Assembly (NCBI RefSeq): GCF_002162135.1
Contig: NZ_CP021382.1
Location: forward strand, 2,478,001-2,542,000
DNA: 64,000 bases
Direction of reading: 5' to 3'
Source of the DNA: Cellvibrio sp. PSBB006
GTDB lineage: Bacteria > Pseudomonadota > Gammaproteobacteria > Pseudomonadales > Cellvibrionaceae
The translations under genes and the position numbers were made by a program. The notes beneath the pieces are model-generated. The model did no database searches and was not told the DNA's origin. It saw only the letters and a program-made list of their open reading frames with translations. Below, one piece after another: positions 2,334-25,898 of the stretch. Position 1 is the first letter of the stretch; each line of letters opens with the position of its first letter.

Positions 2334-2344
2334 TATGCGACAAG

Positions 2345-3267: not shown

Positions 3268-3295
3268 TTTTTTATATCTATCGAGAAAAGACACT

Positions 3296-3625: not shown

Positions 3626-3666
3626 AGCCTTGTTTTAAACACTCTTTCATAAAAGAGGTAATAATC

Positions 3667-6717: not shown

Positions 6718-6727
6718 AACATTGATC

Positions 6728-9730: not shown

Positions 9731-10531
9731 ATGAAGGATTTTTTTCGAACAGTAGTATGGGGCGTCCTGATCTGCATGGCAGTTGCCAACGCCCACGCGC
9801 AAAGCCGTTATTTAATGGGTCCGGGCGATGAAATTCGTCTGACCGTTTACAACCAACCCGACCTCACGACCGAAGGGCAAATCAGTGGTGATGGCACGCT
9901 GGAAATTCCGTTATTGGGCAGCGTGCAGCTCGCTGGCCGCAGCAGCGCCGACGCCGCGCGGATGATCGCTGACCATTATGTGCGCGGTGATTTTTTGCAG
10001 GATGCCCACGTCAATATCCTGATCACCAAGTACCGCAGCCAATCGATTGCCATTCTGGGCAAAGTAAACAGCCCCGGAAAACTGGTGCTTGAAGGTCCGA
10101 CTTCTTTAACCGATGCCCTGGCCTTCGCCGGCGGTGTGGCAGAAACCGGCAGCGAACGCCTGATCCTGATCCGCACCGACAAAAACGGTAAGCAGGAACG
10201 TTACGAATACGACCTGCAGCAGTTGTTGAATCATCAGGCAGAAGATCAGCCAGTGGTGTGGATGAAGAATGGCGACACCATTTACGTGCCGGTAGCGGGC
10301 CGGTTTTATCTCAGCGGTGAGGTGCGCTCGCCGGGCATGTATCCCCTCGATCGTAAACTCAACGTGATGCAGGCACTGGGTGTCGGCGGCGGCCCCACCG
10401 CGCGCGCCAACGCCAAGGCCGTGAAACTTTATCGCCGGCAGCCCGATGGTTCAGCCAAAGAGTTGCGGGCCCAACCCGATGATCCGGTCATGGACGGCGA
10501 TGTATTGGTTATTCAGGAAAGTCTTTTTTAG
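9731..10531 (+). CDS. epsE: Polysaccharide export outer-membrane protein (Wza/EpsE type)
   Basis: This is a 266-residue protein with a signal peptide ending AHA at about residue 23. The Poly_export domain begins YLMGPGDEIRLTVYNQPDLT and continues through GDGTLEIPLLGSVQLAG. Two SLBB-type segments follow: IAILGKVNSPGKLVLEGPTS with LAFAGGVAETGS, and YLSGEVRSPGMYPLD with ALGVGGGPTARA. This protein forms the outer-membrane end of the polysaccharide secretion channel. No lipobox is visible, unlike Wza. It is the first gene of the rightward exopolysaccharide operon. Confidence 0.92.
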   Translation: MKDFFRTVVWGVLICMAVANAHAQSRYLMGPGDEIRLTVYNQPDLTTEGQISGDGTLEIPLLGSVQLAGRSSADAARMIADHYVRGDFLQDAHVNILITKYRSQSIAILGKVNSPGKLVLEGPTSLTDALAFAGGVAETGSERLILIRTDKNGKQERYEYDLQQLLNHQAEDQPVVWMKNGDTIYVPVAGRFYLSGEVRSPGMYPLDRKLNVMQALGVGGGPTARANAKAVKLYRRQPDGSAKELRAQPDDPVMDGDVLVIQESLF

Positions 10532-10543
10532 GGAGTCAGCAGT

Positions 10544-11923
10544 ATGAACCTGGCGGCACTTTTACGCATTTTGAGCGCGCGATGGATAACCATCGCCGGC
10601 CTCACCCTGATCGCCGTAGTGGTTGCAGGCGTAGTCACCTTACAAACACCCAAGTCCTACACAGCCGCCACGGAATTGATCATTGATGGCAAAGGGCAGG
10701 ACCCCATCAGTGGTGAATCCCTGCCGGCGCGGATGCTGTCCGGCTATATCGCCACCCAGGCCGATATCATCCGCAGCCGCAATGTCGCCAACAAGGTGAT
10801 TGATCAGCTCAACCTGATTGAAGAGCCGGCCCTGCAACCGGAATTTCGTGCGGCCAGCACTGAACCCCTGCCCTCGCGCGGCTGGCTGCTCTATTACCTC
10901 AAGACCGGGCTGGCAGTCACTCCCCAGCGCGACAGCAGCGTGTTGAGTATTTCCTTTAAGGCGCGGAACCCGGAACTGGCCGCCCGCATCGCCGATGCCT
11001 TTGCCCAGGCTTATATCCAGACCAACCTGGAACTGCGCATTGAACCGGCCAAACAAATCACCCAGTGGTACGACCTGCAACTGGCGTCCCTGCGCGAAAA
11101 CCTGGTGGACCGGCAGAATACGCTGGCGGCTTATCAGGAAGAACACAACATCATCGCGTCCAGTGATCGCCTGGATCTGGAGAGCGAAAAGCTGGCGGAG
11201 TTGTCCTCCATGTTGCTGGTGGTACAGGGGCAGCGGCTCGATGAACAAAGTCGCAGCAAACAACTGGATGGCAGCAAGCCCGGCGCCCTGCCGGAACATG
11301 TGCTGACCAATCCCCAGGTACAGAAGATCTCTGACGAATTGTCCCAGGCCCAAGCGCGCATGGCCGAGATTGGCTCCCAGGTCGGCAGCAATCACCCCCA
11401 GTATCGCCAGGCCCAGCGCGAAGTGGATGCCCTGCAAACCCAGTTACAGCGCACCCTCAAACTGGTGGGCGGCAGTCTGCGCTCCTCGGTTGAACTGTCA
11501 CAAAGCCGCGAGGAGCAGTTAAAGGCCGAGGTCGCCGCACAAAAAGAACATGTGCTGCAATTGAACCGCAATCGCAACCAACTCACCCTCTTACGTCAGG
11601 AAGTTGATAACGCCCAGGCTGCCTATGATGCAGCGCTGGCGCGGGCTTCCCAGACCAAACTGGAAAGCCGTATTGCACTCACGGATGTCGCCATCCTCAA
11701 CACCGCTGCGATCCCCAGCAAACCCACCGAACCCAAGCCGGCGCTAAACCTGCTCATTGCCATGGTTTTCGGCTTGTTGTTGGGTACGGCGGTCGCCTTG
11801 TGCTGGGAGTGGATTGATCGGCGAGTGCGCAGCGGCGAAGAACTGGAAGCCAGTCTCGGCATACCGGTGTTGGCTTATATACCTCTGGAGCGGAATTGGT
11901 CCAAAAGGGAGATCAAGCGATGA
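10544..11923 (+). CDS. epsF: Chain-length determinant protein (Wzz/EpsF type)
   Basis: This is a 459-residue polysaccharide co-polymerase. Its Wzz domain has TM1 at about 13-33 followed by YTAATELIIDGKGQDP. A long coiled-coil periplasmic region lies at about 170-380, with alternating Gln, Leu, Glu and Lys. The second TM is at about 400-422, preceded by the Pro-rich PSKPTEPKPAL typical of the family. It lacks a fused kinase domain; the kinase-like partner is the next gene, overlapping by ATGA. It controls polymer length in the inner membrane and contacts the export channel. Confidence 0.9.
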   Translation: MNLAALLRILSARWITIAGLTLIAVVVAGVVTLQTPKSYTAATELIIDGKGQDPISGESLPARMLSGYIATQADIIRSRNVANKVIDQLNLIEEPALQPEFRAASTEPLPSRGWLLYYLKTGLAVTPQRDSSVLSISFKARNPELAARIADAFAQAYIQTNLELRIEPAKQITQWYDLQLASLRENLVDRQNTLAAYQEEHNIIASSDRLDLESEKLAELSSMLLVVQGQRLDEQSRSKQLDGSKPGALPEHVLTNPQVQKISDELSQAQARMAEIGSQVGSNHPQYRQAQREVDALQTQLQRTLKLVGGSLRSSVELSQSREEQLKAEVAAQKEHVLQLNRNRNQLTLLRQEVDNAQAAYDAALARASQTKLESRIALTDVAILNTAAIPSKPTEPKPALNLLIAMVFGLLLGTAVALCWEWIDRRVRSGEELEASLGIPVLAYIPLERNWSKREIKR

Positions 11924-12795
11924 ACAACCTGGCACAGGCTACAACCGACGACCTGCAAGTCCCCAGTACGCGCGTCAAGATGGGCCACATGCTGGTGGAT
12001 AACGGCAAGATCACCGCCGCCGACCTCAAAGCCATCATCACCCTGCAAAACGAGCGGGGCATTCGCTTTGGTGAAGCGGCGCTGTTGCTCGGGCTGGTCA
12101 GCCCGGCGGATATCCGCTCGGTACTCGCCCGGCAATTTGCCTACACCGCCGTACCCGATGCCGCCAGCCGGCTCGCGCCTTCGCTCACGGCCATATTCAG
12201 GCCCGAAAGCAGCGAGGTAGAAGCCTTGCGCAGCCTGCGCAGCGAATTGATGCTGCGCTATTTCAATACCGCGCCCAACCTCAGTCTGGCTGTGGTCGGC
12301 GCGAACGAGGCCGAGACCATTGCCCGCACGACCGCCAATCTGGCTATCGTCTTTTCCCAGTTGGGTCTGCGCACATTGCTGATCGACAGCAATCTGCGCG
12401 AGCCGCAACTGCATAAATTGTTCGGCGTGGACGGCCGCCATCCGGGTTTATCGGACTTGCTGGCGGACCGCGCGCGCATCCAGCCGTTAACTGTGGCAGC
12501 CCTGCAATCGCTGTGGCTGTTGCCTGCCGGCACCCAGGCGCCCAATCCCCAGGAACTGCTGTCGGGCAGGAATTACCGCGATTATGTGGGCGAACTGTCC
12601 AATCGTTTCGATATCACCCTGATCAGCACACCGCCCATGGCGCGCAACCGTGATGCCCAGTTAGTGGCGGCGCAAGCCGGCGCGGCATTGTTAATCGCCC
12701 AGCAACACAGTTCGCGGATGAAAGATCTGGAAAAGCTCTGCGCCAACCTCTGGGGCGTGGGCGTCCGCGTCGTCGGTGTGGCACTGCGCCACTAA
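11920..12795 (+). CDS. epsG: EpsG-type BY-kinase homologue with degenerate nucleotide-binding motifs
   Basis: This is a 291-residue cytoplasmic protein. The start is the ATG overlapping the upstream stop, after GGGAG. Residues about 20-80 form a T2SSE_N/MshEN-like domain (MGHMLVDNGKITAADLKAII). The P-loop kinase-like domain follows with SSEVEALRSLRSELMLRYFN. The usual Walker A is replaced by GANEAETIARTT (about 127-138), with no GKS/GRS. Walker A' reads LLIDSNLREP, with the second Asp changed. Walker B reads TLISTPP, without Asp. There is no C-terminal tyrosine cluster. ATP binding and tyrosine kinase activity are therefore doubtful. It may act as a structural partner of the Wzz protein (inference). 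Confidence 0.85.
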   Translation: MNNLAQATTDDLQVPSTRVKMGHMLVDNGKITAADLKAIITLQNERGIRFGEAALLLGLVSPADIRSVLARQFAYTAVPDAASRLAPSLTAIFRPESSEVEALRSLRSELMLRYFNTAPNLSLAVVGANEAETIARTTANLAIVFSQLGLRTLLIDSNLREPQLHKLFGVDGRHPGLSDLLADRARIQPLTVAALQSLWLLPAGTQAPNPQELLSGRNYRDYVGELSNRFDITLISTPPMARNRDAQLVAAQAGAALLIAQQHSSRMKDLEKLCANLWGVGVRVVGVALRH

Positions 12796-12818
12796 GGCCC
12801 ATTGCGGGAGAATTCAGG

Positions 12819-14183
12819 ATGGGATTTGCACGGTACCAATCACCGCCCGGCCTGCTGGCCTCGCCAGTACCGACGGGTAATTCGCTGATGAGGGATACCT
12901 CTGCCGAGCAGGTGTTCGAGCAGCGTCTGGTGTTGGGTATTCTGGTGGCTGCCGTGTCTTACCAGGCGCTGTTGTGCCTGATCAATACCCAGGTCTTTTC
13001 CGTCTCCCGCGCCATGGTCGGTTTGGCCGAAGCGATTATCCTGGCCGCCTGCCTGCCCTTGTTGGTGCGCCGTCTGTTACCCGGTGTGATCGTCATCCTG
13101 GCGCTGATGGGCGCCCTGCTCTGCCTGCTGACCCTGCTCAGTGGTGAGCTTGAAATCAAGGCCTTCCGCGACTTGCTCATCCCGCTGGCGTTCTTCTGGC
13201 TCGGCTGCAATATTGGCCGCCCTGAACTGGCGGATCGCGCCCTGACCTATGCCTTCACAGTAGTGCTGACCATGGGGCTGTTCGAGTTTTTCCTGCTCGA
13301 CCTCTACACCCAATTTTTCAACATCTTCGGCTACTACGTGAACATCGGTAACCTGCAGGTCATCACCGAGTATGTGCGCGACAGCAAGCTGCAAATGAAC
13401 GGGATTCGCCCCGAAGGCATCGGCCGCACGCTGCTACCCGGTCTGTTGGGCAGCCACCGGGTGTCCTCGGTGTTTCTTGAACCTGTGTCGCTCGGCAACT
13501 TTGCGGCGATCACCGCCGCCTGGGGCCTGAGCCGCGATAAAGACGACTGGCGCGAGGGCATCTTCTTTGTCTGTGCCGCCGTGGTGCTGATGGTGCTCTC
13601 CGATTCGCGCTTCGCGCTGATGTCGGTATCGCTGATGGTAGCGATGCGCATGGTGCTGAGTGGCAAAGGTCTGTACCTCGCGATTCTTGCGCCCTTCGGC
13701 GCCATTGCCATTGTGATGGTGGCCGGGGCGATGATCGATGAACGCATCGGCGACACCTTCCTGGGGCGTCTGGCCATCAGTGGCTGGGCGCTGGCGGAAT
13801 TTGATGTAGCAACGCTGTTGGGCGCGGCACCGGGTGAGAATTTTGCGGATATGGGTTATGCCTATGTGCTGTCCACCTTCAGTCTGCCGCTGTGTCTGTT
13901 GCTGTGGTTCAGCCTGTGGCTGCTCAAGATTCCCGATGCGCGCGGCCAGCGTTTTCGCGCCTTTGTCTCGGTGTATATCGCCTTGATCCTCTGCGTTAGC
14001 GGCACCTCGTTATTTGCCTTCAAAACCGCTGCCCTGCTCTGGTTCCTGGTGGGCTGCACCCTGCGCAATCCGGCGCCGGAAAGCCCCTCAGCCCAACCCT
14101 TGATAAAGCGCGTCAACCAGTTCCACGAAGCCTATTCCCAGGCGCCCCAAACCCAAGCCACCCGGAGGAAGGATGTCTATTAA
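12819..14183 (+). CDS. Polysaccharide polymerase-like multi-pass membrane protein (Wzy/GumE role)
   Basis: This is a 454-residue protein with about ten to twelve predicted membrane helices across residues 35-420. A large periplasmic loop at about 165-220 contains Arg/Gly/Leu-rich IRPEGIGRTLLPGLLGSHR, followed by SSVFLEPVSLGNF. A loop of this type is typical of O-antigen ligase/polymerase proteins. It lies between the co-polymerase genes and the glycosyltransferases. It is the only candidate polymerase in the locus. Sequence families of Wzy are very divergent, so the role rests on topology and context. Confidence 0.72.
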   Translation: MGFARYQSPPGLLASPVPTGNSLMRDTSAEQVFEQRLVLGILVAAVSYQALLCLINTQVFSVSRAMVGLAEAIILAACLPLLVRRLLPGVIVILALMGALLCLLTLLSGELEIKAFRDLLIPLAFFWLGCNIGRPELADRALTYAFTVVLTMGLFEFFLLDLYTQFFNIFGYYVNIGNLQVITEYVRDSKLQMNGIRPEGIGRTLLPGLLGSHRVSSVFLEPVSLGNFAAITAAWGLSRDKDDWREGIFFVCAAVVLMVLSDSRFALMSVSLMVAMRMVLSGKGLYLAILAPFGAIAIVMVAGAMIDERIGDTFLGRLAISGWALAEFDVATLLGAAPGENFADMGYAYVLSTFSLPLCLLLWFSLWLLKIPDARGQRFRAFVSVYIALILCVSGTSLFAFKTAALLWFLVGCTLRNPAPESPSAQPLIKRVNQFHEAYSQAPQTQATRRKDVY

Positions 14184-15306
14184 CGTCACCCATATTGTTC
14201 GCCAGTATTTGCCGTCTATCGGCGGCATGGAAGAAGTGGTGCGTAACATTGCCCTGCATCAGGCGCGCACGGGGCAACAGGCAACCCGCATCATCACGCT
14301 GGACCGCTTGTTCCGTAATACCAGCCAGCGGTTGCCGGAGCGCGAAGAGATCGGTGGCGTGGAGGTGGTGCGGCTGCCTTACTACGGTTCCAGCCGCTAT
14401 CCGCTGTGCCCGAGTATCCTCGGCCAGTTGGGTTCTACCGATGTGGTGCATGTACACGGTGTGGATTTCTTCTATGACTTTCTGGCGCTGACCAAGTGGT
14501 GGCACCGTCGCCCGCTGGTGTTGTCGACCCACGGCGGCTTCTTCCATACCAGCTTTGCCTCCCGCGCCAAGCAGGCCTATTTCAAGACAGTTACCCGATT
14601 GTCGGCCAAGGCCTACAGCCAGGTGGTAGCCACCAGTGCCAATGACGGCCAGCTATTCAGCCGTATCATGAGCGGGCCTAAATTGCAGGTGATTGAAAAC
14701 GGCGTGGATGTGGACAAGTACCACGACCAGGCGTCCCTCAGCCTGCAGCCGACCTTGATGTATTTCGGACGCTGGTCGTCCAACAAAGGGTTGGTGGAAT
14801 CCCTGCAACTGATCGCCAGACTCAAGGCGCGCGACCCGTGCTGGCAGCTGATTATTGCCGGGCGCGAATATGATCACAGCCTCTCCGAGCTGCAAACGCG
14901 GGTTGCCGAACTGGGGATCAAGGATCACGTACAACTGGTGGCCAACCCCAGCGATGAGCAGATCCGCACCCTGTTGCAGCAGGCCAGTTATTTTCTCTGC
15001 CTGTCGCGCCATGAGGGTTTCGGCATCGCGCCCATTGAAGGCATGAGCGCCGGGCTGACGCCCATCCTTTCTGATATTCCTCCATTCCAGCGCTTGGCTA
15101 AGCGCTCCGGTCTGGGCTTCACTATCAATACCGATGCATCCCCGGATGCCGCCATAGACAGCCTCCTGCAACTTCATGCGGAGGGGCAGGATGCCTATCT
15201 GGCGCGGCGGCGCATTGCCATGTCTTTCTCCCGGCAGTACGCCTGGCCCAGAGTAGCTGATCGCTACCTGGAGTTGTACGACAAGTTAGGAGGTCGACCG
15301 TCATGA
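14173..15306 (+). CDS. GT4-family glycosyltransferase
   Basis: This is a 377-residue GT-B enzyme. The N-terminal domain begins INVTHIVRQYLPSIGGMEEVVRNIA, with the Gly-rich acceptor loop. The C-terminal domain has YFGRWSSNKGLVESLQLIARL, then SRHEGFGIAPIEGMSAGLTPI, the EGFGxxxxEGM motif that binds the sugar nucleotide. It overlaps the polymerase gene by 11 bases and the GH5 gene by ATGA. In a xanthan-like scheme it would be the GumH-type alpha-mannosyltransferase; this is inference by elimination. Confidence 0.88.
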   Translation: MSINVTHIVRQYLPSIGGMEEVVRNIALHQARTGQQATRIITLDRLFRNTSQRLPEREEIGGVEVVRLPYYGSSRYPLCPSILGQLGSTDVVHVHGVDFFYDFLALTKWWHRRPLVLSTHGGFFHTSFASRAKQAYFKTVTRLSAKAYSQVVATSANDGQLFSRIMSGPKLQVIENGVDVDKYHDQASLSLQPTLMYFGRWSSNKGLVESLQLIARLKARDPCWQLIIAGREYDHSLSELQTRVAELGIKDHVQLVANPSDEQIRTLLQQASYFLCLSRHEGFGIAPIEGMSAGLTPILSDIPPFQRLAKRSGLGFTINTDASPDAAIDSLLQLHAEGQDAYLARRRIAMSFSRQYAWPRVADRYLELYDKLGGRPS

Positions 15307-16355
15307 AATCCCTTATCCACCTTGTTATCTGCGCACCCTTGGCATTGTTGCTCACGGTGTCCACTGCCCATGCGAATAATTGCCTGAGTTCACCACGCCT
15401 CACCGGCGTCAATATTGCCGGTGCCGAGTTTAATTCGAAGCGTTTACCGGGCGTGATCTTCAAGGATTACACCTACCCGAAAGACTCGGAACTGGCGTAC
15501 ATCGCCGCCCAGGGCGCCAACATCATTCGCCTGCCCTTCCGCTGGGAACGCATACAGCCGGAAGCGAACAAAGCCCTCAATGCCGACGAACTCAAACGGT
15601 TGAAAAATACCGTTAGCAAAGCCAGCGCCGAGGGGTTATGCGTCCTGCTGGATGTGCATAACTATGCCCAGTATTACGGCGAGTCCTTCAAAGAAAAGCC
15701 CGCCCTGGAAGATGCGTTTGTCGACTTGTGGAAGCGCCTTGCAGATGAGTTTACCGATCCGACCCAAACTATCTTCGGTCTGATGAACGAGCCGGCGCAT
15801 ATGCCGGTAGATAGCTGGGCCGACCTGGCCAAACGCACCCTGAAAACCCTGCGCGATGAAGGCGCCACCAACCGCATATTTGTCGGCGGCGGCGGCTGGA
15901 GCGGTTTACACGATTGGTTCAAACCCAAGGGCGACACCACCAATGCAGCGGAATTCGCGGACCTGAAAGATCCGCTCAAGCGCACCACCATTGAAGTGCA
16001 TCAGTACGCCGATGAGTGGTATTCCGGCACCAAGATCGACTGCCATCCGCCAGATCATTTTGATCCCAGGTTCGAACGCATCAGCGCCTGGGCCGCGGAA
16101 CATAATCAGCAACTGTTCCTCGGCGAATTCGGCATGGCCACCACCGAAGAATGTTTGCAGGTGTTGGAACGTATCCTGTCACTAATGGAAGGGCCGGTGT
16201 GGAAAGGTTGGAGCTACTGGGCTGCTGGCGGCTGGTGGGGCGACTATCCCTTTGCGTTGAACACCAACGCCGCAACACCCTCCTTGCAGTGGAAACCGCT
16301 GAAAGATCATTTCTATGTTGAAAATCCACCTAATCCGCCGGAACCGGTGAATTAA
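15303..16355 (+). CDS. Secreted GH5-family glycoside hydrolase (endoglucanase type)
   Basis: This is a 350-residue protein with a signal peptide ending AHA (about residue 24). The barrel shows GH5 motifs: LTGVNIAGAEF, IIRLPFRWERIQP, LLDVHNYAQYY, the acid/base E163 in GLMNEPAH, EVHQYAD, the nucleophile E275 in FLGEFGM, and YWAAGGWWG. The family is typically active on beta-1,4-glucans. It lies inside the exopolysaccharide operon after AGGAGG. It may therefore trim or release a polymer with a cellulose-like backbone during export, rather than digest food polymer (inference). Confidence 0.92.
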   Translation: MKSLIHLVICAPLALLLTVSTAHANNCLSSPRLTGVNIAGAEFNSKRLPGVIFKDYTYPKDSELAYIAAQGANIIRLPFRWERIQPEANKALNADELKRLKNTVSKASAEGLCVLLDVHNYAQYYGESFKEKPALEDAFVDLWKRLADEFTDPTQTIFGLMNEPAHMPVDSWADLAKRTLKTLRDEGATNRIFVGGGGWSGLHDWFKPKGDTTNAAEFADLKDPLKRTTIEVHQYADEWYSGTKIDCHPPDHFDPRFERISAWAAEHNQQLFLGEFGMATTEECLQVLERILSLMEGPVWKGWSYWAAGGWWGDYPFALNTNAATPSLQWKPLKDHFYVENPPNPPEPVN

Positions 16356-16382
16356 TTTTTCGCACGCTATGGGAGCCTGCCT

Positions 16383-17543
16383 ATGAATTCGCAAGCCGCT
16401 GTTAAGGAACAACCGTCTACCGCGACGGATAATTTCCTGGTGCTTTCAGCGCACGACTATCGCTCTCCGCGCAAGGCGAGTATCCATTTCATTACCAATG
16501 AATTGGCCAAGCGCGGACCGACGCGATTTTTTTCACTGCGTTACAGCATGCTCTCGCGTTACACCGCCGACCCGCGTTTGTCGCTGGATGACCAGGCCAA
16601 TCGCATCGCCACCCATCAGGGTGTGGAATGTTATTTGTGGAAGACCATGATCCACCCGTTCAACACGCGGCGTTCCTGGCTGCGCCCGGCGGAGAGCATC
16701 ATGTATCGTTGGTACAGCCAGGGGCGTAACAATGTGTTGCGCCAGTGGATCAAGGACGCGACGGTCATCCTGTTGGAAAGCGGTGTCGCACCGGTATTTT
16801 TTGATTTGATTAAACAGTTAAATCCTTCCGCTAAAATTTTGTATCGCGCGTCGGATTCGCTGGAAGCCATCAACGTGGCCGAGTATGTCAATGATGCTTT
16901 CGCGCGTATCGCTGGCGACATCAATACTATCGCCCTACCGTCCAGAGCATTGGTGGACAGTATTCCCAGTCGCCACAATTTGATTTTTGTTCCTCACGGT
17001 ATTGATCATTCCGTCGCGGAGAAAGCTGATCCATCGCCCTATGAAGGCGAGGGTATTCACGCGGTATCCGTGGGTTCCATGTTGTTTGATCCCAGCTTTT
17101 TTGTGCTCGCGTCCAAACGTTTTCCGCAGATCCATTTTCATGTGATCGGCTCGGGGCATCCGCGTCATCCGGAGTACGGCGATAACGTTACCGTGTATGG
17201 TGAGATGCCTTTCGCGCAGACACTGCGTTACATCAAACACGCGCGCATCGGTATTGCGCCCTATTCCAGCACCAATTTACCGGCTTATTTGCGCGATACC
17301 TCGCTGAAATTAATTCAATACGAATTTTTTAAATTACCGGCGATCTGCCCGACATTTATTGCGGCGGATTACCCGACCCGTTTCGGCTACGAGATTGGCG
17401 ATGGCGATTCGATCGAACAGGCCATCAATCGCGCACTGAGCCCGGTGCAGCCGTTGGTTACACGGCAGGTGTTGAGCTGGGGCGAAGTAACAGAACGCAT
17501 GCTTACCCCGCAATTCTTTCGCGATACGGAGATGACTGCATGA
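16383..17543 (+). CDS. GumK-like (GT70) glucuronosyltransferase
   Basis: This is a 386-residue GT-B protein. It matches the GumK layout: an N-terminal LVLSAHDYRSPRKASIHFI, a central LYRASDSLEAIN, FVPHGIDHS, then VSVGSMLFDPSFFVLASKRF and GIAPYSSTNLPAYLRDTSLKL. GumK adds glucuronic acid beta-1,2 to mannose on the xanthan lipid-linked intermediate at the inner membrane. The substrate here is inferred from this similarity and from the presence of GumM-, GumI- and pyruvyl-transferase-like neighbours. It overlaps the next gene by ATGA. Confidence 0.78.
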   Translation: MNSQAAVKEQPSTATDNFLVLSAHDYRSPRKASIHFITNELAKRGPTRFFSLRYSMLSRYTADPRLSLDDQANRIATHQGVECYLWKTMIHPFNTRRSWLRPAESIMYRWYSQGRNNVLRQWIKDATVILLESGVAPVFFDLIKQLNPSAKILYRASDSLEAINVAEYVNDAFARIAGDINTIALPSRALVDSIPSRHNLIFVPHGIDHSVAEKADPSPYEGEGIHAVSVGSMLFDPSFFVLASKRFPQIHFHVIGSGHPRHPEYGDNVTVYGEMPFAQTLRYIKHARIGIAPYSSTNLPAYLRDTSLKLIQYEFFKLPAICPTFIAADYPTRFGYEIGDGDSIEQAINRALSPVQPLVTRQVLSWGEVTERMLTPQFFRDTEMTA

Positions 17544-18313: not shown

Positions 18314-18315
18314 GC

Positions 18316-19419
18316 ATGCAAACCTCATCAAACAGCGAACCACTTTATGTAAAGGGTCGCGATAAAAGTAGCGGAGCCACGCACGCGATGCGCATACTTG
18401 CTTCACCGGCTTTTTCCAATGAACGGGTTAATCCCTACAACGCTTTGCTCTACCGCGAGATGCAGAAATTGGGCGTACCGGTTGACGAGTATTCACACCG
18501 CAAGGCGGTGCTGGAACCTTACGATATCGTGCATTTCCATTGGCCCGATGGCTACATGAATGAGCGCGGTTTTTTTAAGGCCTGGCAGCGTATTGCGCTG
18601 TTTGTGTTGATCATTACCCTGCTGAAATTAAAAGGCACCAAGGTGGTATGGACCGCACACAATGTCGCACCCCACGACGCGTTTCGCCCGGCGTTATCCC
18701 AGCGCTTTATGAATTGGTTTATCCAGCGTTGCGACGGTTTAATCTTTATGAGCGAAGACAGCAAGAATGCGTTCTTCAAACAGTATCAGGCACCGCAACA
18801 GCTGAAATATGCCATTATCCCCCACGGCCATTATCGTAATTCTTATCCCGCCGCCATTGATCAACAACAAGCCAAGGCTACGCTGGGATTGCTGCCCGAT
18901 AAAAAAGTGCTGTTGTTTTTCGGCATGATCAAACCCTATAAAAATGTCGACAACCTGATTAAAGTGTTTAACCAGGCACAGCTTGAACAATACACACTGG
19001 TGGTGGCCGGGAGCCCGGAAACCAGCGCGCTGGCGAATGACATCAAGCACCTCGCCGAAAGCAATCCCGATGTGCACGTGTTTTTGCGGTTCATTCCGGA
19101 CAATGAATTACACACTTATCTGAGCGCCGCCGACATTGTTGTCCTGCCCTACAAGGCGATCTTTAATTCGGGCGCGCTCTTGCTGGCCCTGTCGTTCGAC
19201 AAACCGGTGATTGCACCGCACATCGGCGCCATGGTGGTATTACAAAAACAACTCGGCGAACAATGGATACACAGTTACCGCGACGATTTTCAGACACAAA
19301 CCTTGCAGCAGGCGATTGCGCAACTGGAAACTGCTGAGCGCCCCGCTGTATGCCCGCTGGATGAATACAACTGGGATCATCTGGCCGATGCAACCGTGAA
19401 GTTGTATCAGCGTTTATAA
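18316..19419 (+). CDS. GumI-like/GT4-type glycosyltransferase
   Basis: This is a 367-residue protein. It has MRILASPAFSNERVNPYNALLY, DIVHFHWPDG, VVWTAHNVAPHD and ADIVVLPYKAIFNSGALLLA. The pattern fits GT-B mannosyltransferases like GumI (GT94), which cap the xanthan side chain. The ATG at 18316 sits three bases after the previous stop. An internal ATG at 18388 would begin at MRILASP and is a real alternative, because the first 24 residues look unstructured. Donor and acceptor are not determined. Confidence 0.8.
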   Translation: MQTSSNSEPLYVKGRDKSSGATHAMRILASPAFSNERVNPYNALLYREMQKLGVPVDEYSHRKAVLEPYDIVHFHWPDGYMNERGFFKAWQRIALFVLIITLLKLKGTKVVWTAHNVAPHDAFRPALSQRFMNWFIQRCDGLIFMSEDSKNAFFKQYQAPQQLKYAIIPHGHYRNSYPAAIDQQQAKATLGLLPDKKVLLFFGMIKPYKNVDNLIKVFNQAQLEQYTLVVAGSPETSALANDIKHLAESNPDVHVFLRFIPDNELHTYLSAADIVVLPYKAIFNSGALLLALSFDKPVIAPHIGAMVVLQKQLGEQWIHSYRDDFQTQTLQQAIAQLETAERPAVCPLDEYNWDHLADATVKLYQRL

Positions 19420-19469
19420 CCGGCCCGCCGTGTTATTTTTTTATTTCTTTTTCTGATCGATAAACCTAC

Positions 19470-20957
19470 ATGACCTTAAAACAACGTTTGGGCCGCAGTA
19501 CAGTCTGGATGAGCGCGGCGGCCAGTGGTAACAGTGTCGTCAGCTTTCTGATTTTTATTGTCCTTTCCCGCATCCTCGCGCCGGCTGAAATTGGCTTGGT
19601 GGCTTTTGCATTGATTGTGGTAGAGGCGGGCAAGATCATCGTCAACGCCGGTTTTCCCCAGGCCATTGTGCAACGCCAATTGTGGGACGATGTTTACGCC
19701 TCCACCTGCTTTCACCTCAATATGGTTTTTGCGTTATTAATCAGCACACTGATTTTCTTTATCGGTGTACCCTTGGTGGAAGCCTATTACGAGCCCGATG
19801 CCGGGCCAATCCTGGAAGTTCTGTCGGTTATCTTTTTTATCGAAGGCGCCAAGGCAGTCCACGAAGGAAAGTTGAAGCGGGAATTTGCATTTCAGGTCAT
19901 CGCAATACGCATGGTGGTCGCGGGTTTGTTGTCCGGCGCGGTGGGTATTTTTCTCGCGATCAAAGGTTTCGGTGTCTGGGCACTGGTGTGGCAACAATTG
20001 ATCAACCACAGTGTCATCACCCTGTTTACCCTGACTGCTTCACGCTGGGTACCACGCCTGGTATTTTCCAAAGAGGATTGCAAACAACTGCTGAAATTCT
20101 CGTCGCCTCTGATGGCTGCACAATTGATCGGCAATATCAGTTCAAAGATTTTTGAAGTGTTGATCGGGGTGATGGTCGGGCCAGCGGCACTCGGGTTTTT
20201 TCGCGTCGGCGGACGCGCGCTGTTTATCTTGCAGGAAATTGTACTCAAACCGTTTGAACAGACCGTCTTGTCGGCACTGTCACGCATTCCTGAGCGCGAT
20301 CAGCAGGCGGCTGGCACCTTACGTGTCATCAAGATCAGCGCCTACATCACCTTTCCGATCTTCTTCGGCGCGGCAGCCATAGGACCGGAATTTATTATCT
20401 TTGCGTTTGGTGAAAAATGGGCGCTCAGCGGCCAGATCATGACCATCCTCGCCCTGGGTACTGCGCCATTGGTTATCGGTTTTCAAATCAATGCGGCACT
20501 AACCGCCAGCGGCAACTCGCGCATGGTTATGGCGTTGGCCAGTGTTGTCTTTGTGATTAACTGTGGTCTGGGACTAGTGTCCGTATCCTACGGATTGATT
20601 GCCGCCGCTTATGGTTTTGCTGTGCGTAGTTACCTGACTATATTTTTTAATATGTATTTCTTCAGAAAAGTGTTCGGGATAAATATCCTGTTCGTCATGC
20701 GCTCTGTTGCCGCGTCTTTTATCGCCGCGGTGATTATGTTTGCGCTGGTATCTCTTATCAGGTTCTACCTGCCCGATGACCTGCCGGCGATCACGAGCCT
20801 TCTGATACTTTGTCTTGCGGGCGCCACCCTTTATGCCGCACTGATGATCACTGTCTTTCGCAAAGAGACACGCAATTTTTTAAACGAGGGACAGGATATG
20901 GTGCCGCAAAAATTCAGACCTGTACTGGCAAAGGGACGGAGATTACTCAGAATGTAA
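19470..20957 (+). CDS. Wzx-type oligosaccharide flippase (MOP superfamily)
   Basis: This is a 495-residue protein with about twelve to fourteen membrane helices. It starts with LGRSTVWMSAAASGNSVVSF and RILAPAEIGLVAFALIVVE, and has an internal QLLKFSSPLMAAQLIGNISS segment, all typical of polysaccharide export flippases. It carries the lipid-linked repeat unit across the inner membrane for polymerisation by the Wzy-like protein. It is the last gene of the rightward operon. Confidence 0.92.
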   Translation: MTLKQRLGRSTVWMSAAASGNSVVSFLIFIVLSRILAPAEIGLVAFALIVVEAGKIIVNAGFPQAIVQRQLWDDVYASTCFHLNMVFALLISTLIFFIGVPLVEAYYEPDAGPILEVLSVIFFIEGAKAVHEGKLKREFAFQVIAIRMVVAGLLSGAVGIFLAIKGFGVWALVWQQLINHSVITLFTLTASRWVPRLVFSKEDCKQLLKFSSPLMAAQLIGNISSKIFEVLIGVMVGPAALGFFRVGGRALFILQEIVLKPFEQTVLSALSRIPERDQQAAGTLRVIKISAYITFPIFFGAAAIGPEFIIFAFGEKWALSGQIMTILALGTAPLVIGFQINAALTASGNSRMVMALASVVFVINCGLGLVSVSYGLIAAAYGFAVRSYLTIFFNMYFFRKVFGINILFVMRSVAASFIAAVIMFALVSLIRFYLPDDLPAITSLLILCLAGATLYAALMITVFRKETRNFLNEGQDMVPQKFRPVLAKGRRLLRM

Positions 20958-21042
20958 GTATTCTCCGTCATGACGAAAAAATTATAGACAGAAATAATCA
21001 AGGAAGCCGTAGAAATCAAATCCGCAAGAGGTCTAACGTTGC

Positions 21043-21096
21043 TTATTAGTCTAGTTTTCCTTATTAGCCTAATTTTCCTTATAAGCCAAATTTTCC
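21043..21096. repeat. Three 18-bp tandem repeats abutting a stop codon
   Basis: The units are TTATTAGTCTAGTTTTCC, TTATTAGCCTAATTTTCC and TTATAAGCCAAATTTTCC, directly joined. They lie between the ends of the two convergent exopolysaccharide operons. On the minus strand each unit is in frame with the pyruvyl-transferase gene and ends in TAA, so read-through would meet repeated stops. Confidence 0.9.
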
Positions 21097-22305
21097 TTAT
21101 AAAAAGTTGCGTTTAGCCAAGTCAATTACACCGGGTAGGTGTTGCCCGATATGCTCACCAAGACGCTCTTTGTCATTGAGCAGAGAAATCACCCGATCCG
21201 CAACACGTTTGGGGTCCGTCGCTAATTCTTCCGGTGACGACAGCAACTCCTGGTGCTCCAGATCGAATAGCTGCAGCAAGCCTTCAAATTTATCCTGATA
21301 AGCAAAACTGAAGGTTGGTGTACCGCCACTCATGGCCAGGATAGCCGCGTGCATACGCCCGGTCACAAGCATATCCAGCTCGGCCAGCACCGCACGAACA
21401 GCGCCCGGACTTTCCGGCGGCAGCAAATAAAGACGCGCACGATCCTTCTCTTCCACGGCAGATACGGCGTCCAGAAGAACCGCTTCATCGGGTTTGCTGG
21501 AACGCGTATCGTGCGGAACTAACAGCAGTGAAATATTATGTTCCAATAATTTTTTCACCAGCACTTGTAAGGCCGCCGGAATATCTTTGTTTCGCTCGGC
21601 GTGGAGAAAATTGGCATTTAAGCCGATAACCTGATCACCCGCTTTGCGGCGCTCATGAATCCAGGCTGTAGCACTGATAGCTGACGGCCATCCGGGTCTG
21701 GGTGCAACCAGGAAAGCCAAGTCAGCTACTTGTCGAATAGGTCGGTTCAGCATTTCCTCCATGCGCTGTTTGGAGTAAGGATCGCGCGCACAAATCGTCA
21801 CGTTGTCCGGCATTTCCCGCAAAATTTTCCGGGTAGGTTCCTGGGCTTTTTTACTAAAACTTGAACCAAGCAGGGTTGCTTTTCTGCCGAGCCGGGCAGC
21901 CTCGGAAAATAAGGCCAGACGGCCGGTGATGGATTTGAGATTGTATGAACCGTCAATGACGTCTGCACCAATCATGTAGAACTCAGCATAACCAGGTAAG
22001 CAGGACACCAGCAGCGCATGTTGTAGCGGTGAGCGTTTGTAAAAATAACGTTCGGATTTGATTCTGCGATCTATTTTTTCATCCAGGTCCCAGGTTTTTC
22101 CGGACATAAGATCAACTTGCCAGAAACCTTTATCCCGCAGGATACCCGCCGTAGCGGAGATCATTGCCGAATCACCCAAGCTGCCCGGCACGGTCGGCGG
22201 GATAATTAACGCGCGCTGATCAACAGCAACGCCTGCCCCGGTTGTTTCAGATTTGTTGCGTATGCTGCCAAGCATACGTCCTACAGAGATCGCTAACTTT
22301 TCCAT
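21097..22305 (-). CDS. Polysaccharide pyruvyl transferase family protein
   Basis: This is a 402-residue PF04230-type protein. Motifs include LIIPPTVPGSLGDSAMI near the N-terminus, YMIGADVIDGSY, RDPYSKQRMEEM, VIGLNANF and a late LVTGRMHAAILAMSGG with PTFSFAYQDKFEGL. The family moves a pyruvyl group from phosphoenolpyruvate onto sugar hydroxyls. I chose the ATG at 22305 because AAGGA lies seven bases before it; an upstream in-frame ATG at 22320 lacks a ribosome site. It is the last gene of the leftward operon and differs strongly from the second pyruvyl transferase beside it. Confidence 0.85.
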   Translation of the reverse strand: MEKLAISVGRMLGSIRNKSETTGAGVAVDQRALIIPPTVPGSLGDSAMISATAGILRDKGFWQVDLMSGKTWDLDEKIDRRIKSERYFYKRSPLQHALLVSCLPGYAEFYMIGADVIDGSYNLKSITGRLALFSEAARLGRKATLLGSSFSKKAQEPTRKILREMPDNVTICARDPYSKQRMEEMLNRPIRQVADLAFLVAPRPGWPSAISATAWIHERRKAGDQVIGLNANFLHAERNKDIPAALQVLVKKLLEHNISLLLVPHDTRSSKPDEAVLLDAVSAVEEKDRARLYLLPPESPGAVRAVLAELDMLVTGRMHAAILAMSGGTPTFSFAYQDKFEGLLQLFDLEHQELLSSPEELATDPKRVADRVISLLNDKERLGEHIGQHLPGVIDLAKRNFL

Positions 22306-22374
22306 AATGTAATCCTTCATAACGCATTAACATGAAGCTCCCTCACCCAGAAAAACTGCATCAACCCGATATTG

Positions 22375-23196
22375 CTAATTCCACAATTCCAGCGGAAACG
22401 CATACATCAAAGCTGTATGATCATAGCGAATAGCAGGAGCACCTCCCATTTCCAAACCTTCTTGTAAAGATGTAGCGAAGCTGAACTCAGCTTCCGTTCT
22501 TCCACTTCCCAGGTGGTAGTCTTTGTATTTAAACAAATCTTCCGTTTGCGACAAGCGTACGTAACGGGCCGGGATGCCGAAGGCTTCGGCAATAATTAAA
22601 CCGTGGAGTGAACTGGCCAACACAAACTTTGCTTTCAGAATTTTATTAATAACAATATTCCAACCCCACAATGGCGACACCAGTTTGGGATGATCATTGA
22701 CCAACGCCAGGTCATGCAGGTTGGGCACGACGACGTAATCGTCTTCAGCGGTAGCCACGAAACGATTCTTGAAGATATACGGCAGAAGCAATGCCGGATC
22801 ACCGTAGACGTCCGGCACAACAATGCCGCGCTTGCGCAAAAACTCAGCAGTCAAAGGGCCGCGTACGGCATGCACTTTTAAATCGCCTGCGGTGAATTCT
22901 TTCTCCGGAATTTTGCCATTCCAGCCCGAGCCCCACACGTTGTCACCGGTCTGGGCAAAATGCAGGATAGACCCTATCGCTAACAGGCGCGCCGGATCGC
23001 GGACTTGATCGTCAAGGCTTAATCCGTGGAACGCCAGCATCTGGCGCGTCACAATGTCGGAAAGTCGATCACCGAAATTCACATTGCCGTTGTCAGGTGA
23101 CCAATGAAATAAATCCACATGGGGATAAGGCAAACGTCCCACCAGGGGTGACGCTTGGGTAAGGTTTTTGGCGAGTGTTGATAACTTTGCTAACAC
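22375..23196 (-). CDS. GumL/ExoV-like polysaccharide pyruvyl transferase
   Basis: This is a 273-residue protein starting at GTG after AAGGAG. Motifs: NFGDRLSDIVTRQML, LLAIGSILHFAQTGDNVWGSGW, VHAVRGPLTAEFLRKRGI, VYGDPALLLPYIF and FVLASSLHGLIIAEAFGIPARYV. This is the compact GumL/ExoV form that adds pyruvate ketals to terminal sugars of xanthan or succinoglycan. The product would be an acidic ketal on the repeat unit. It sits between the EpsL-like barrel and the longer pyruvyl transferase gene. Confidence 0.88.
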   Translation of the reverse strand: MLAKLSTLAKNLTQASPLVGRLPYPHVDLFHWSPDNGNVNFGDRLSDIVTRQMLAFHGLSLDDQVRDPARLLAIGSILHFAQTGDNVWGSGWNGKIPEKEFTAGDLKVHAVRGPLTAEFLRKRGIVVPDVYGDPALLLPYIFKNRFVATAEDDYVVVPNLHDLALVNDHPKLVSPLWGWNIVINKILKAKFVLASSLHGLIIAEAFGIPARYVRLSQTEDLFKYKDYHLGSGRTEAEFSFATSLQEGLEMGGAPAIRYDHTALMYAFPLELWN

Positions 23197-23245
23197 GTTT
23201 GCTCCTTAACGGAAATAAGAGCGGCGATAAATTACGCTCAACAAA

Positions 23246-24427
23246 TTAATAACGAAACGATAATCCCAAAATAGCCTGGGAAGACGTGTAGGTCCGATAC
23301 GCCAAAGGTGAATCACGGTCGACCCAGCGGGTATCCAGACGAATAGAGAACTGTTCGGAAAATTCATAAACCATTTGCAAGGGTGAAATGCTATAAACCG
23401 TTTCGTCGCGGTCAGGGCCGGGGCTGTCGTCCTGATAATTTTGTCTAATAACATTAACATCGGCACCCACGCTTATCTTGGGTGTCCATTGCCACTCTGT
23501 GCCAACAAATACGGTGTGCGTGCCTGCGGGTGAGTCAGACGTTTCACCGACGGCTTGTTCACGATAGGAATAGCCGCCATTGAATTCGGTTTTTTCTGTC
23601 ATCGCCCAATTAGCTTCCAGTATCGCGAGCACACCAGTGCCATCGTTCACCACACCATCGCGATTGAAGTAACCGAGTGTTGCCGTCAGATTGGTTTTGG
23701 CAGAAGTTTCCCAGACTGTTTCCAGTTCCGCTTGCTGGTAGTCAAAATCCAGATCTTCATAGGGCTCCAACGTACCCGGATCAACATCCGGATCATCGAC
23801 CGGCAAACCTATTTGCTGGTTGGGATAAATACGTTCACCGTAGCGAACGCGCAAGAATAACGTCGATTGAATACCGGTTTTGTAACCCGCCTCGAAGTAA
23901 CCTTCGTCTTCTTCAAAGTCCAGTCCTTCACGCAGGCCATTAGAGTGAGTTTGTTCGGCCTGACGACCACCAACACCCAAGGTCAAACGATGGCCGGCGC
24001 CATAACTGATCAAGGCGTGGGCTTCATCGCGCTTCACAATATCCTTGTCGCGAAATTCCAGGCGATCGACAGGGTAAGAATCGCGCATCCATTCGAGGCG
24101 CGACTTCAACCGGTTGCCCCATTGACCCTGCCAGGTAACACGCCCTTCATTGAGCGTTGCATCCAGATCGGGGCGTTCAGCATGATCATAGTGAGACAAT
24201 TGCCACCGCGCGATAAAACGCTGACGACTCAGCGTTTTATCCAGCGAGACAAACGCCGATGACATGGTGATGCGTTCCGAATTTTCCTCAGGCGTACGTT
24301 CGTAATTGCTGTCCCACAATTGTCGTACCGACGCGCCCATGGAAAATAAATCCGTCTGCGCCGCTGCCGGCATTGCCACTAACGTACACAGAGGTATAAC
24401 ACGAAAAAAACTCACTGATTCCCGCAT
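23246..24427 (-). CDS. EpsL-like outer-membrane beta-barrel protein
   Basis: This is a 393-residue protein with a signal peptide ending AAAQ. The remainder is a series of amphipathic strands (SVRQLWDSNYERTP, TLGVGGRQAEQ, LFLRVRYGERIYPNQQ and others) ending in ILGLSFRY, the usual barrel C-terminal Tyr. It resembles EpsL-type barrels of Eps exopolysaccharide loci. It may help the polymer cross or attach at the outer membrane. The ATG at 24427 has GGGA upstream and follows the previous stop by 16 bases; a longer frame overlaps that gene. Confidence 0.75.
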   Translation of the reverse strand: MRESVSFFRVIPLCTLVAMPAAAQTDLFSMGASVRQLWDSNYERTPEENSERITMSSAFVSLDKTLSRQRFIARWQLSHYDHAERPDLDATLNEGRVTWQGQWGNRLKSRLEWMRDSYPVDRLEFRDKDIVKRDEAHALISYGAGHRLTLGVGGRQAEQTHSNGLREGLDFEEDEGYFEAGYKTGIQSTLFLRVRYGERIYPNQQIGLPVDDPDVDPGTLEPYEDLDFDYQQAELETVWETSAKTNLTATLGYFNRDGVVNDGTGVLAILEANWAMTEKTEFNGGYSYREQAVGETSDSPAGTHTVFVGTEWQWTPKISVGADVNVIRQNYQDDSPGPDRDETVYSISPLQMVYEFSEQFSIRLDTRWVDRDSPLAYRTYTSSQAILGLSFRY

Positions 24428-24443
24428 GAACAATATCCCGATA

Positions 24444-25898
24444 TCAATAGGCGTGTTGACCAACAAAGCCCTTGAATACCGTCATCCACAGGATTCTTAA
24501 ATCCATCAGCAAGGACCAATTGCGAATGTATTCCAGATCGTAAGCAATGCGCCCGGACATTTTGTCGAGGGTTTCCGTTTCACCGCGGAAGCCGTTAACT
24601 TGTGCGAGCCCGGTAATGCCAGGTTTCACTTTATGGCGCAACATATAGCCCTTGATCTGGCTGCGATAATATTCATTGTGTGACACCGCATGTGGGCGCG
24701 GTCCAACCAATGACATGCTGCCGGACAACACATTAAACAGCTGCGGCAATTCATCCAGCGACGTGCGCCGCAGAAATCCGCCGAAGGGTGTCACGCGCGG
24801 ATCTTCTTTACGCGCCTGAGCAACATTTTCACCATCTTCACACACCGTCATGGAACGGAATTTCCAGACTTTGATGCGTTCACCGCGCATGCCGTAGCGG
24901 GTTTGCTTGAAGAATACCGGTCCGGGCGATGATAACTTCACCCCCAGCGCAATGATTAACATCGGTAGCGCCAGCGCGATCATCATGCCGGTGCCGAGCA
25001 CAATATCTTCCATGCGCTTGGCCCACCCGTTATCTACCATCGGCGAATCATAGATGCTCAGTGCCGGTATGCCTTGCAAGCACGTTAAGCGCGAGTGCAA
25101 TAAGTCAAAGTTGAAGACATCGGGGATTAAATAGGCTGAGACGGTAGTATCAGCAAGGCGTGCGATCAACGAATGCGTGCGCAACTCTGCACGCATCGGC
25201 AAGGTGATAAATACAATATCAATCTTGCCATCACGCGCGTCGGCATAGAGTTGCTCGAAGCCGCCGCGGATGGTGGTGTCACTTTCGTTGAGCCGACGAG
25301 TTGGATCATCGGTGCCTTGGCGATCGTCGTAATAACCCACCACGCGGTAACCCATCCACGGCATACCGCGCATGGATTTAGCCACGCGGGAACCGAGGTT
25401 ATTGGCCCCGACAATCGCAACGCGGCGCGGCTCTGTAGGTTTGGAGCGCAGGCGCGTCAACAATGCGCGGCGTGCCCAATGCAACCCTATCATCACCACC
25501 GGCGTGGCTACCATCCAGGTAAAAATTGCCTGCAAATTTACATCGCGGAAAATATAAATCGTCAGCGCAGCGAGGCTGGCCGCCGCTGCCGTTCCCAGCC
25601 AGGCACCCATCAAACGATAGGCGAGACTTTCTGTGGAGTGGCCGCGCCACAAATAATAGACTTCATTACCTTCGGCAAAAAAGCCGAAGATAATCACCGC
25701 ACTGATACCCAACGCGGTGTAGGAATTGGTCCATGCCAAATCCATACTACGCAGAGTGAACCAGAGGAGAAAAATAATCAGAAAACTATCCAGCGCGCGA
25801 AATAACGCGAGGATTTTTGAGTGATGTAGCCGGATAACTGGCGGCTGAGTGGATACAACCGGGGTCCCCGAAATACCTGGTATTTGTTGACTGCCCAT
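24444..25898 (-). CDS. Undecaprenyl-phosphate glucose phosphotransferase (WcaJ/GumD type)
   Basis: This is a 484-residue polyprenyl-phosphate hexose-1-phosphate transferase. Four N-terminal membrane helices (about residues 30-150) and a CoA-binding-like cytoplasmic region (VAIVGANNLGSRVAKSM) precede the catalytic part: a helix, KLSSPGPVFFKQTRYGMRGE, KVWKFRSMT, LRRTSLDELPQLFNVLSG, MSLVGPRPHAV and KPGITGLAQVNGFRGET. It starts repeat-unit assembly by loading glucose-1-phosphate on the lipid carrier. The start at 25898 has GGAGGTAGTT before it. It is the first gene of the leftward operon. Confidence 0.93.
   Translation of the reverse strand: MGSQQIPGISGTPVVSTQPPVIRLHHSKILALFRALDSFLIIFLLWFTLRSMDLAWTNSYTALGISAVIIFGFFAEGNEVYYLWRGHSTESLAYRLMGAWLGTAAAASLAALTIYIFRDVNLQAIFTWMVATPVVMIGLHWARRALLTRLRSKPTEPRRVAIVGANNLGSRVAKSMRGMPWMGYRVVGYYDDRQGTDDPTRRLNESDTTIRGGFEQLYADARDGKIDIVFITLPMRAELRTHSLIARLADTTVSAYLIPDVFNFDLLHSRLTCLQGIPALSIYDSPMVDNGWAKRMEDIVLGTGMMIALALPMLIIALGVKLSSPGPVFFKQTRYGMRGERIKVWKFRSMTVCEDGENVAQARKEDPRVTPFGGFLRRTSLDELPQLFNVLSGSMSLVGPRPHAVSHNEYYRSQIKGYMLRHKVKPGITGLAQVNGFRGETETLDKMSGRIAYDLEYIRNWSLLMDLRILWMTVFKGFVGQHAY

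Follow-up and report, generated by a model that had tools for sequence, protein, structure and literature searches.

The stretch analysed here, referred to as the window, comprises 64,000 nucleotides of Cellvibrio sp. PSBB006 (contig NZ_CP021382.1, positions 2,478,001 to 2,542,000 of the forward strand), a genome assembled as one 5.26 Mb contig. Window positions 9731-25943 hold 14 genes that combine homologues of the Xanthomonas gum (xanthan) genes with export genes of the Eps type and an embedded gene for a glycoside hydrolase of family 5 (GH5). Assignments from open reading frame (ORF) calls and Pfam/NCBIfam scans are listed below in window coordinates, with GT denoting a glycosyltransferase family and percentages denoting identity to the Xanthomonas protein.

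9731..10531, forward: EpsE-type polysaccharide export (OPX) protein, 266 aa (Pfam Poly_export and SLBB; TIGR03028 230.6 bits, cut-off 262.65)
10544..11923, forward: EpsF-type chain-length determinant (PCP), distant GumC homologue (TIGR03017 448 bits, cut-off 422.75)
11896..12795, forward: EpsG-type tyrosine autokinase with MshEN-like N-terminus (TIGR03029 267.8, cut-off 313.8; NF053729 42.9, cut-off 38)
12819..14183, forward: Wzy/GumE-type polymerase (28% to GumE; kept at the same place in sister loci; without a Pfam or NCBIfam family)
14173..15306, forward: GT4 in the GumH role, alpha-mannosyltransferase (52% to GumH; EX7E motif at residue 281)
15303..16355, forward: GH5 endo-glucanase (PF00150 160.8 bits; catalytic Glu 163 and Glu 275)
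16383..17543, forward: GumK, GT70 glucuronosyltransferase (PF22059 224.9 bits; PDB 2hy7 E 2e-142)
17540..18313, forward: GT26 in the GumM role, beta-1,4-glucosyltransferase (PF03808 183 bits; 48% to GumM)
18262..19419, forward: GumI-like (GT94-type) transferase (28% to GumI, E 1e-38; Trp68/Asn108/His112 equivalents)
19470..20957, forward: MOP-family flippase in the Wzx/GumJ role (PF13440 229.7 bits; 28% to GumJ)
21097..22320, reverse: second pyruvyltransferase-family protein, WcaK/CsaB-like, 407 residues (PF04230 89.4 bits)
22375..23196, reverse: GumL-type ketal-pyruvyltransferase, 273 residues (PF04230 47.8 bits; 42% to GumL over 251 aa)
23246..24466, reverse: EpsL-type outer-membrane beta-barrel (TIGR03014 127 bits, cut-off 275; AlphaFold model)
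24444..25943, reverse: GumD/WcaJ undecaprenyl-phosphate glucose-1-phosphate transferase (TIGR03023 518 bits, cut-off 410.75; 37% to GumD)

The genes from EpsE to the flippase form a forward operon (9731-20957: EpsE, EpsF, EpsG, polymerase, GT4, GH5, GT70, GT26, GumI-like, flippase), which converges at approximately 20957/21097 with a reverse operon (25943-21097: GumD/WcaJ, EpsL, GumL-like, second pyruvyltransferase-family protein). A first-pass annotation of this DNA had described the same two convergent operons and placed them at 9731-25898. The start of that span agrees with our calls, while its end is an internal Met of the GumD ORF, which starts at 25943.

Orthology with the gum genes was assessed by BLASTP in both directions between window proteins and stop-to-stop frames of the gum loci of X. 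euvesicatoria (L032) and X. melonis (L027). Mutual best partners in L032 were found for GumD (37% over 459 aa), GumH (52%), GumK (57%), GumL (42%), GumM (48%), GumE (28% over 412 aa, E 5e-23), GumI (28% over 338, E 1e-38) and GumJ (28% over 350, E 7e-24), and X. melonis yielded the same pairing for all eight gum genes. These pairs and the profile scans locate the GumD, E, H, I, J, K, L and M homologues where the first-pass annotation had put them, and the GT70 and GumI/GT94-type assignments whose absence it had named as decisive are present by sequence homology. The mutual best pairing also shows that the family-less protein at 12819 is the GumE-type polymerase and that the partner of GumI is the GT4-like protein at 18262. 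X. phaseoli (L040) gave similar pairs, with a GumD value of 47% that covers 267 aa only; gumD and gumE are each split over two frames in that record, and its gumD rows are unreliable and were used in no count. EpsF is a distant match (26-27%) of the GumC frames of L027 and L032. GH5, EpsE, EpsG and EpsL had no match in the Xanthomonas gum loci at E 1e-4, where L032 and L040 begin inside gumC and are therefore without gumB.

Residues of functional importance are kept in the transferases. The solved enzyme matched by the window GumK (2hy7) is that of X. campestris. In a six-sequence GumK alignment, the equivalents of Asp157, Met231, Leu232, Tyr292, Leu301, Ser305 and Lys307 (numbering transferred) are invariant and correspond to window residues 158, 233, 234, 294, 303, 307 and 309, with D158 as the catalytic Asp; the roles of the catalytic Asp and donor-site residues are described in the available text of PMC12768416. 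As in GumH, an EX7E motif is present in the GT4 assigned to the GumH role. The possibility of the GumI-like gene being merely another GT4 was ruled out, as it pairs with GumI rather than GumH and lacks EX7E; its product is without any E-x7-E string, and Xanthomonas GumI itself holds two such strings elsewhere in its sequence.

The two members of the pyruvyltransferase family differ in kind. The short gene at 22375-23196 was considered as a possible fragment, and this was ruled out by its GumL-like size and its identity to GumL. Its neighbour at 21097-22320 had no match in the three Xanthomonas gum loci at E 1e-4 and, judged from its sequence, is not GumL; its structure model (pLDDT 95.5) resembles GT-B-type enzymes. 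A sequence search of solved structures gave no match for either protein at E 0.001.

Based on gene content, homology, kept active-site residues and conserved gene order, all of which are read directly from the DNA, we consider it highly probable that the locus makes a xanthan-type branched exopolysaccharide (EPS) that is assembled, polymerised, exported and GH5-processed along the following lines, in which the donor sugars, linkages, export topology and the location and substrate of GH5 are predictions. GumD would transfer glucose-1-phosphate onto undecaprenyl phosphate and the GT26 enzyme would add a second, beta-1,4-linked glucose to give a cellobiosyl lipid. The EX7E GT4 would then add alpha-mannose, followed by beta-glucuronate from GumK and a terminal beta-mannose from the GumI-like enzyme, which the GumL-type enzyme is predicted to pyruvylate. 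The lipid-linked pentasaccharide would be turned over by the flippase and the units linked by the GumE-type polymerase, with EpsF/EpsG setting chain length. The polymer would leave through EpsE, a short OPX protein of the periplasm, coupled to EpsL, which would form a separate outer-membrane barrel of 18 strands, and GH5 would most likely cut the beta-1,4-glucan backbone of the cell's own polymer in the periplasm or matrix, for trimming, clearing or release, as PelA does for Pel. The five-sugar xanthan logic of the first-pass annotation is supported by the family assignments (GumD, GT26, EX7E GT4, GT70, GumI-like and GumL). Its statement that the cluster has no acetyltransferase also stands: Pfam/NCBIfam scans found no acetyltransferase or acyltransferase family (GumF/GumG) among the 14 cluster proteins, the rest of the genome not having been searched for them, and no acetyl groups would be expected from the cluster. 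Outside the window, the genome has one full-length gene for a bifunctional GMP/PMI enzyme (GMP_PMI 679 bits) and two for nucleotide-sugar dehydrogenases, likewise of full length, so that the need for GDP-mannose and UDP-glucuronate is covered.

An acetan-type or unrelated heteropolymer may be made instead of a xanthan-type one, in which the inner tetrasaccharide is the same but the sugar added by the GumI-like enzyme is not beta-mannose, and the cap and substituents differ. This alternative draws on the low identity of the GumI-like protein (28%) and its substitutions at Thr260 (to Ala) and Arg179 (to Lys), on the resemblance of the accessory genes (endoglucanase, barrel porin) to printed acetan loci, and on the GT25 or extra GT4 genes that other Cellvibrio species carry near the same slot. 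A preprint on GumI (PMC13104830) proposes, in the part available, stacking by Trp68, a nearby but flexible His112, and Asn108 in place of the Asp of other GT94 members, which it takes as a possible sign that the acceptor is acidic. Equivalents of Trp68, Asn108 and His112 are kept in 9/9 scorable Cellvibrio rows, window included (the L070 row was not covered). The retained Asn108-type residue argues against the acetan-type alternative, as do the restriction of GumL to loci with GumI and the lack of any glycosyltransferase family beyond the GumD, H, I, K and M partners in Pfam/NCBIfam scans of the window cluster, and we regard a non-mannose terminal sugar as rather improbable.

The wider genus was examined for variation in this outer arm. 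GumK was found in 16 of 21 Cellvibrio genus genomes and was absent from the 36 other genera sampled among its relatives; it is rare more broadly, with 3/398 phylum genomes over the Pfam cut-off, our own included. Among the genus genomes without GumK, G019 has a cluster that keeps gumH, GH5 and gumM, the clusters of G011 and G008 are cut by contig ends, and G015 and G020 gave no EpsF match. GumD, GumH and GumM occur in all 16 Cellvibrio GumK loci, in which GumK is constant by choice of loci. By tblastn, used since the profile for GT4b also matches GT4a, GumI is present in 10/16 and GumL in 8/16, the latter only where GumI occurs (8/10 loci with GumI, 0/6 without). The second pyruvyltransferase-family gene was found in two of the 16 loci (the window and L079), a GT25 gene in five and an extra GT4 in five (L074 by position and kinship to L073), while L068 has none of GumI, GumL, GT25 or extra GT4. 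On a tree of four core proteins, with 4/15 inner branches open and states set by hand, the most parsimonious history needs 4 changes each for GumI, GumL and GT25, 2 for the second pyruvyltransferase-family gene and a single one for the extra GT4. These patterns are most simply read as a backbone core that stays fixed while the outer arm is exchanged.

Some related clusters carry additional genes. A GumK-less Cellvibrio cluster (L111, 12325-14784) carries an extra GT4 and a 382-aa pyruvyltransferase-family protein. An Ectothiorhodospiraceae cluster (L063) has a Sulfotransfer_2 gene (11983-12759) after gumM, hinting at a sulfated variant. Sulfotransferases are also annotated in plasmid loci of Thioclava, Sulfitobacter and Roseivivax whose GumK homologues are remote.

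Export appears to be of a type that pairs a short OPX protein with an 18-stranded barrel. Pfam gave no match to a Wza_C domain in the 266-residue EpsE protein. The AlphaFold model of EpsL (nine sequences) has 18 long strands at a mean pLDDT of 86, and the PDB matches listed for it are outer-membrane barrels at approximately 10% identity. Among them, AlgE and porins of the OprD family reach TM ~0.5-0.58, and a FadL mutant is first by E-value at TM 0.39. The physical pairing of EpsE and EpsL is a prediction. Export sets of the EpsE/F/G/L type are known as methanolan-type; the four window proteins hit the same families, EpsF alone above its curated cut-off, and are joined here to gum-type transferases. 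Short OPX proteins paired with 18-stranded barrels are described in PMC9603273, and the available text of this paper and of PMC9601211 mentions neither EpsL, Cellvibrio nor Methylobacillus. The composite translocons of Myxococcus (EpsY/EpsX and WzaX/S/B) are alike in having a short OPX protein without a Wza_C match and a barrel, here predicted, of 18 strands; they differ in that in Cellvibrio the OPX gene belongs to one, and the barrel gene to the other, of the two opposed operons of the cluster.

The MshEN domain binds cyclic di-GMP (c-di-GMP) through two motifs, each with an Arg and a Gln. The EpsG N-terminus lies above the NF053729 cut-off, and in an alignment of 18 loci the Arg and Gln of the second motif and the Gln of the first are kept in all 18, while the first-motif Arg is not conserved. 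As the second motif is kept but the first Arg is not, direct c-di-GMP control through EpsG is rated as possible only.

Several results weigh against xanthan-type synthesis and export by this cluster. GumI, GumE and GumJ are only ~28% identical to their Xanthomonas counterparts. The Arg179 to Lys change in GumI is found in all nine scored Cellvibrio rows, the window among them, and the Thr260 to Ala change in eight of the nine, again including the window; the latter is also seen in 1/8 further Xanthomonadaceae rows. The four export proteins do match the EpsE/F/G/L families to which the first-pass annotation had assigned them, but only EpsF passes the curated NCBIfam cut-off, with EpsE, EpsG and EpsL below theirs. 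Families of the GMP_PMI and dehydrogenase type match most of 14 control genomes (over cut-off in 4 and 13), and a promoter scan returned 5 promoter-like sites against a shuffle mean of 13.7, that is, fewer than in shuffled sequence.

The weak promoter scan could also reflect a cluster that is decayed or silent, with no polymer made in this strain. The C. japonicus-like locus L079, in which the gumD homologue lies in two separate frames, points the same way, as an example that interruption of the cluster is possible within Cellvibrio. Against this, none of the 14 window ORFs is broken, every catalytic residue examined is conserved and GumK is retained across most of the genus; we regard decay or silence in this strain as very improbable. 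In L079 the gumD/wcaJ homologue (1725-3116 onward) was matched in pieces covering 82% and 17% of the query, and this priming gene may be interrupted or misread; the EpsE and EpsF pieces of G002 (L113) also look interrupted.

The first-pass annotation was incomplete: it mentioned neither the embedded GH5 gene nor the second protein of the pyruvyltransferase family, and noted neither the pairing of a short OPX protein with an 18-stranded barrel nor the resemblance of the accessory genes to those of acetan loci. The start of GH5 is signal-peptide-like by eye, as in most cluster homologues, and the protein is probably secreted; it has no further Pfam domain such as a carbohydrate-binding module. 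Both catalytic Glu residues are kept in 25/25 cluster GH5 homologues. The gene is present in 16/16 Cellvibrio GumK loci, between gumH and gumK, and the order epsEFG-wzy-gumH-GH5-gumK-gumM is identical in Marinobacter (L022) and an Ectothiorhodospiraceae metagenome-assembled genome (L063). Among 20 other GumK loci, GH5 was found in 7/8 with GT26 versus 1/12 without (Fisher p 0.0008). Omission of L060 (a 5 kb contig), L061 (at a contig end) and L064 and L094 (kin of L062 and L091) left 6/7 with GT26 versus 0/9 without (p 0.0009). These p-values are indicative only because the loci are related and several GT26-less loci have remote GumK homologues (25-40% identity). Throughout, L017-L021 and L023, which duplicate six other loci, were left out of counts, 7/15 plasmid matches were taken in, and GumD counts used the window's own GumD as seed. 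GH5 as a mark of GumK clusters per se was ruled out, as GumK loci without GT26 are mostly without GH5. In a search of class genomes at E 1e-20, GH5 homologues were found in 6/369, own included; the other five have 31-36% identity, and two of them have EPS-gene homologues beside a GH5.

This pattern may indicate that the embedded GH5 enzymes form a class of their own, dedicated to processing the polymers of Wzx/Wzy pathways that build on a cellobiosyl backbone; such an enzyme would follow GumD/M/H even without GumK and cut the cell's own branched glucan to set chain length or release. If so, one enzyme counted among Cellvibrio cellulases would really be an EPS-maturation enzyme, and the genus would offer a natural collection of xanthan variants built on one fixed core with interchangeable outer arms. 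We advance this generalisation tentatively, as a serious possibility at slightly less than even chances. A number of results weigh against the xanthan-type model above and its GH5 step. GH5 is absent from all 33 Xanthomonadaceae gum loci, which indicates that xanthan itself needs no in-cluster GH5. The loci in the GH5-GT26 count are not independent samples, and a Rhodoblastus locus bears GT26 without GH5. Across seven deep loci the identity profiles of GH5 and GT26 are weakly correlated (rho 0.40, p 0.07), and that of GH5 is better correlated with GT4a (0.53), wzy (0.59) and GT70 (0.61).

Alternatively, GH5 may be an ordinary enzyme for degrading plant cellulose that is co-expressed in a gum operon, the EPS merely aiding attachment to plant matter. 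Its closest solved relatives by sequence are cellulases (PDB cellulase 5hpc, E 1.4e-76), Cellvibrio lives on cellulose (C. japonicus, PMC12542752, as far as its available text goes), and the endoglucanase of the Kozakia gum-like cluster is linked to plant cell wall degradation in the accessible part of PMC5050591. The distribution of GH5 speaks for processing of the cell's own polymer instead: the gene tracks GT26 rather than lifestyle, being found also in Marinobacter, Roseibium, Labrenzia and Aquitalea clusters, and occupies the same slot in Cellvibrio, Marinobacter and Ectothiorhodospiraceae loci. The lack of a further Pfam domain such as a carbohydrate-binding module argues in the same direction. 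In C. japonicus, growth defects on cellulose are reported for only 2/8 cel5 genes in the available text of PMC12542752, a set that may or may not include a counterpart of the window GH5. We therefore consider a role limited to plant cellulose unlikely, while still a real contender.

Hydrolases inside EPS systems are familiar from AlgL, BcsZ and PslG. PelA is likewise a hydrolase within a biosynthetic operon and makes the secreted form of Pel (PMC9894940). In contrast to PelA-type hydrolases, the GH5 described here, of putative function, belongs to a Wzx/Wzy pathway for a branched cellulosic polymer. An endoglucanase is printed in Kozakia and Komagataeibacter gum-like or acetan loci (PMC5050591, PMC6528568, PMC7961339), and in the available text of these papers no polymer-making role is given, PMC5050591 linking the enzyme to plant cell wall degradation. 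The presence of an endoglucanase in such loci is thus already known. What the present data add is its association with the backbone genes in the lineages compared here.

The system is a variant of the gum/acetan kind and not a separate kind. With the Xanthomonas gum operon (gumB-gumM) it shares the homologues of GumD, E, H, I, J, K, L and M, the five-sugar logic and a pyruvyltransferase. It differs from that operon in its two convergent operons and changed gene order, in the lack of a GumF/GumG match in the cluster, in the EpsE/F/G/L export set with kinase and barrel in place of GumB/GumC, and in the addition of the embedded GH5 and an extra pyruvyltransferase-family protein. The acetan and acetan-like loci of Komagataeibacter, Kozakia and Acetobacter, as printed in the passages available, have GumK, GumE, AceA/AceB/AceC cores, an endoglucanase (Eg) and a beta-barrel porin, the Eg of acetic acid bacteria being likened to the Cellvibrio GH5 by printed description only and not by sequence. 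According to the same portion of PMC5050591, gumF, G, I and L are missing from the gum-like cluster of Kozakia, whereas the Cellvibrio cluster has GumI and GumL, and unlike acetan loci the Cellvibrio cluster has no rhamnosyl branch gene. Among the papers listed by searches of the open-licence literature, no report of this Cellvibrio cluster was seen, which does not prove its absence from print.

Xanthan gum is of major industrial importance, and engineering has been used to seek versions whose side chains are truncated or changed. The genus Cellvibrio appears to hold natural variants of this kind, with the same core and with GumI and GumL present, absent or joined by other transferases. It also offers a clean test of the role of hydrolases inside EPS operons, as C. 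japonicus has working genetics and a set of GH5 deletions in this species has been published (PMC12542752, seen in part).

A hairpin at 20935-20969 (13-nt arms, 92% complementary), where the flippase gene ends and the two operons converge, is a candidate terminator, though it was not picked up by a terminator scan; an Rfam scan of 4000-30000 gave 0 matches. Directly upstream of the EPS operon, 4744-9258 encodes a TOL_0244-family TonB receptor, a YfiR-like protein and a CHASE8 hybrid histidine kinase, and a signalling link between these genes and the EPS is possible.

Further observations concern the remainder of the window. An ORF at 2-1024 has a Shedu SduA C-terminal domain (PF14082, 67.7 bits), Shedu being an anti-phage defence family, and adjoins a short ORF for a Mutator-family transposase (1141-1437); this left end of the window is AT-rich (GC content 0.41). 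Four consecutive short ORFs at 2494-4002 (108-114 aa, no Pfam match), of which the others are 22-28% identical to the first with five invariant columns, are possibly diverged tandem paralogues. At 36203-39064 a 953-aa protein contains seven DUF4397 stretches and one Big_2 domain. One ORF at 54404-56008 combines alpha/beta-hydrolase and methyltransferase domains beside an aminotransferase and a radical SAM/BATS protein, and is presumably a fused BioH-BioC in a biotin operon.

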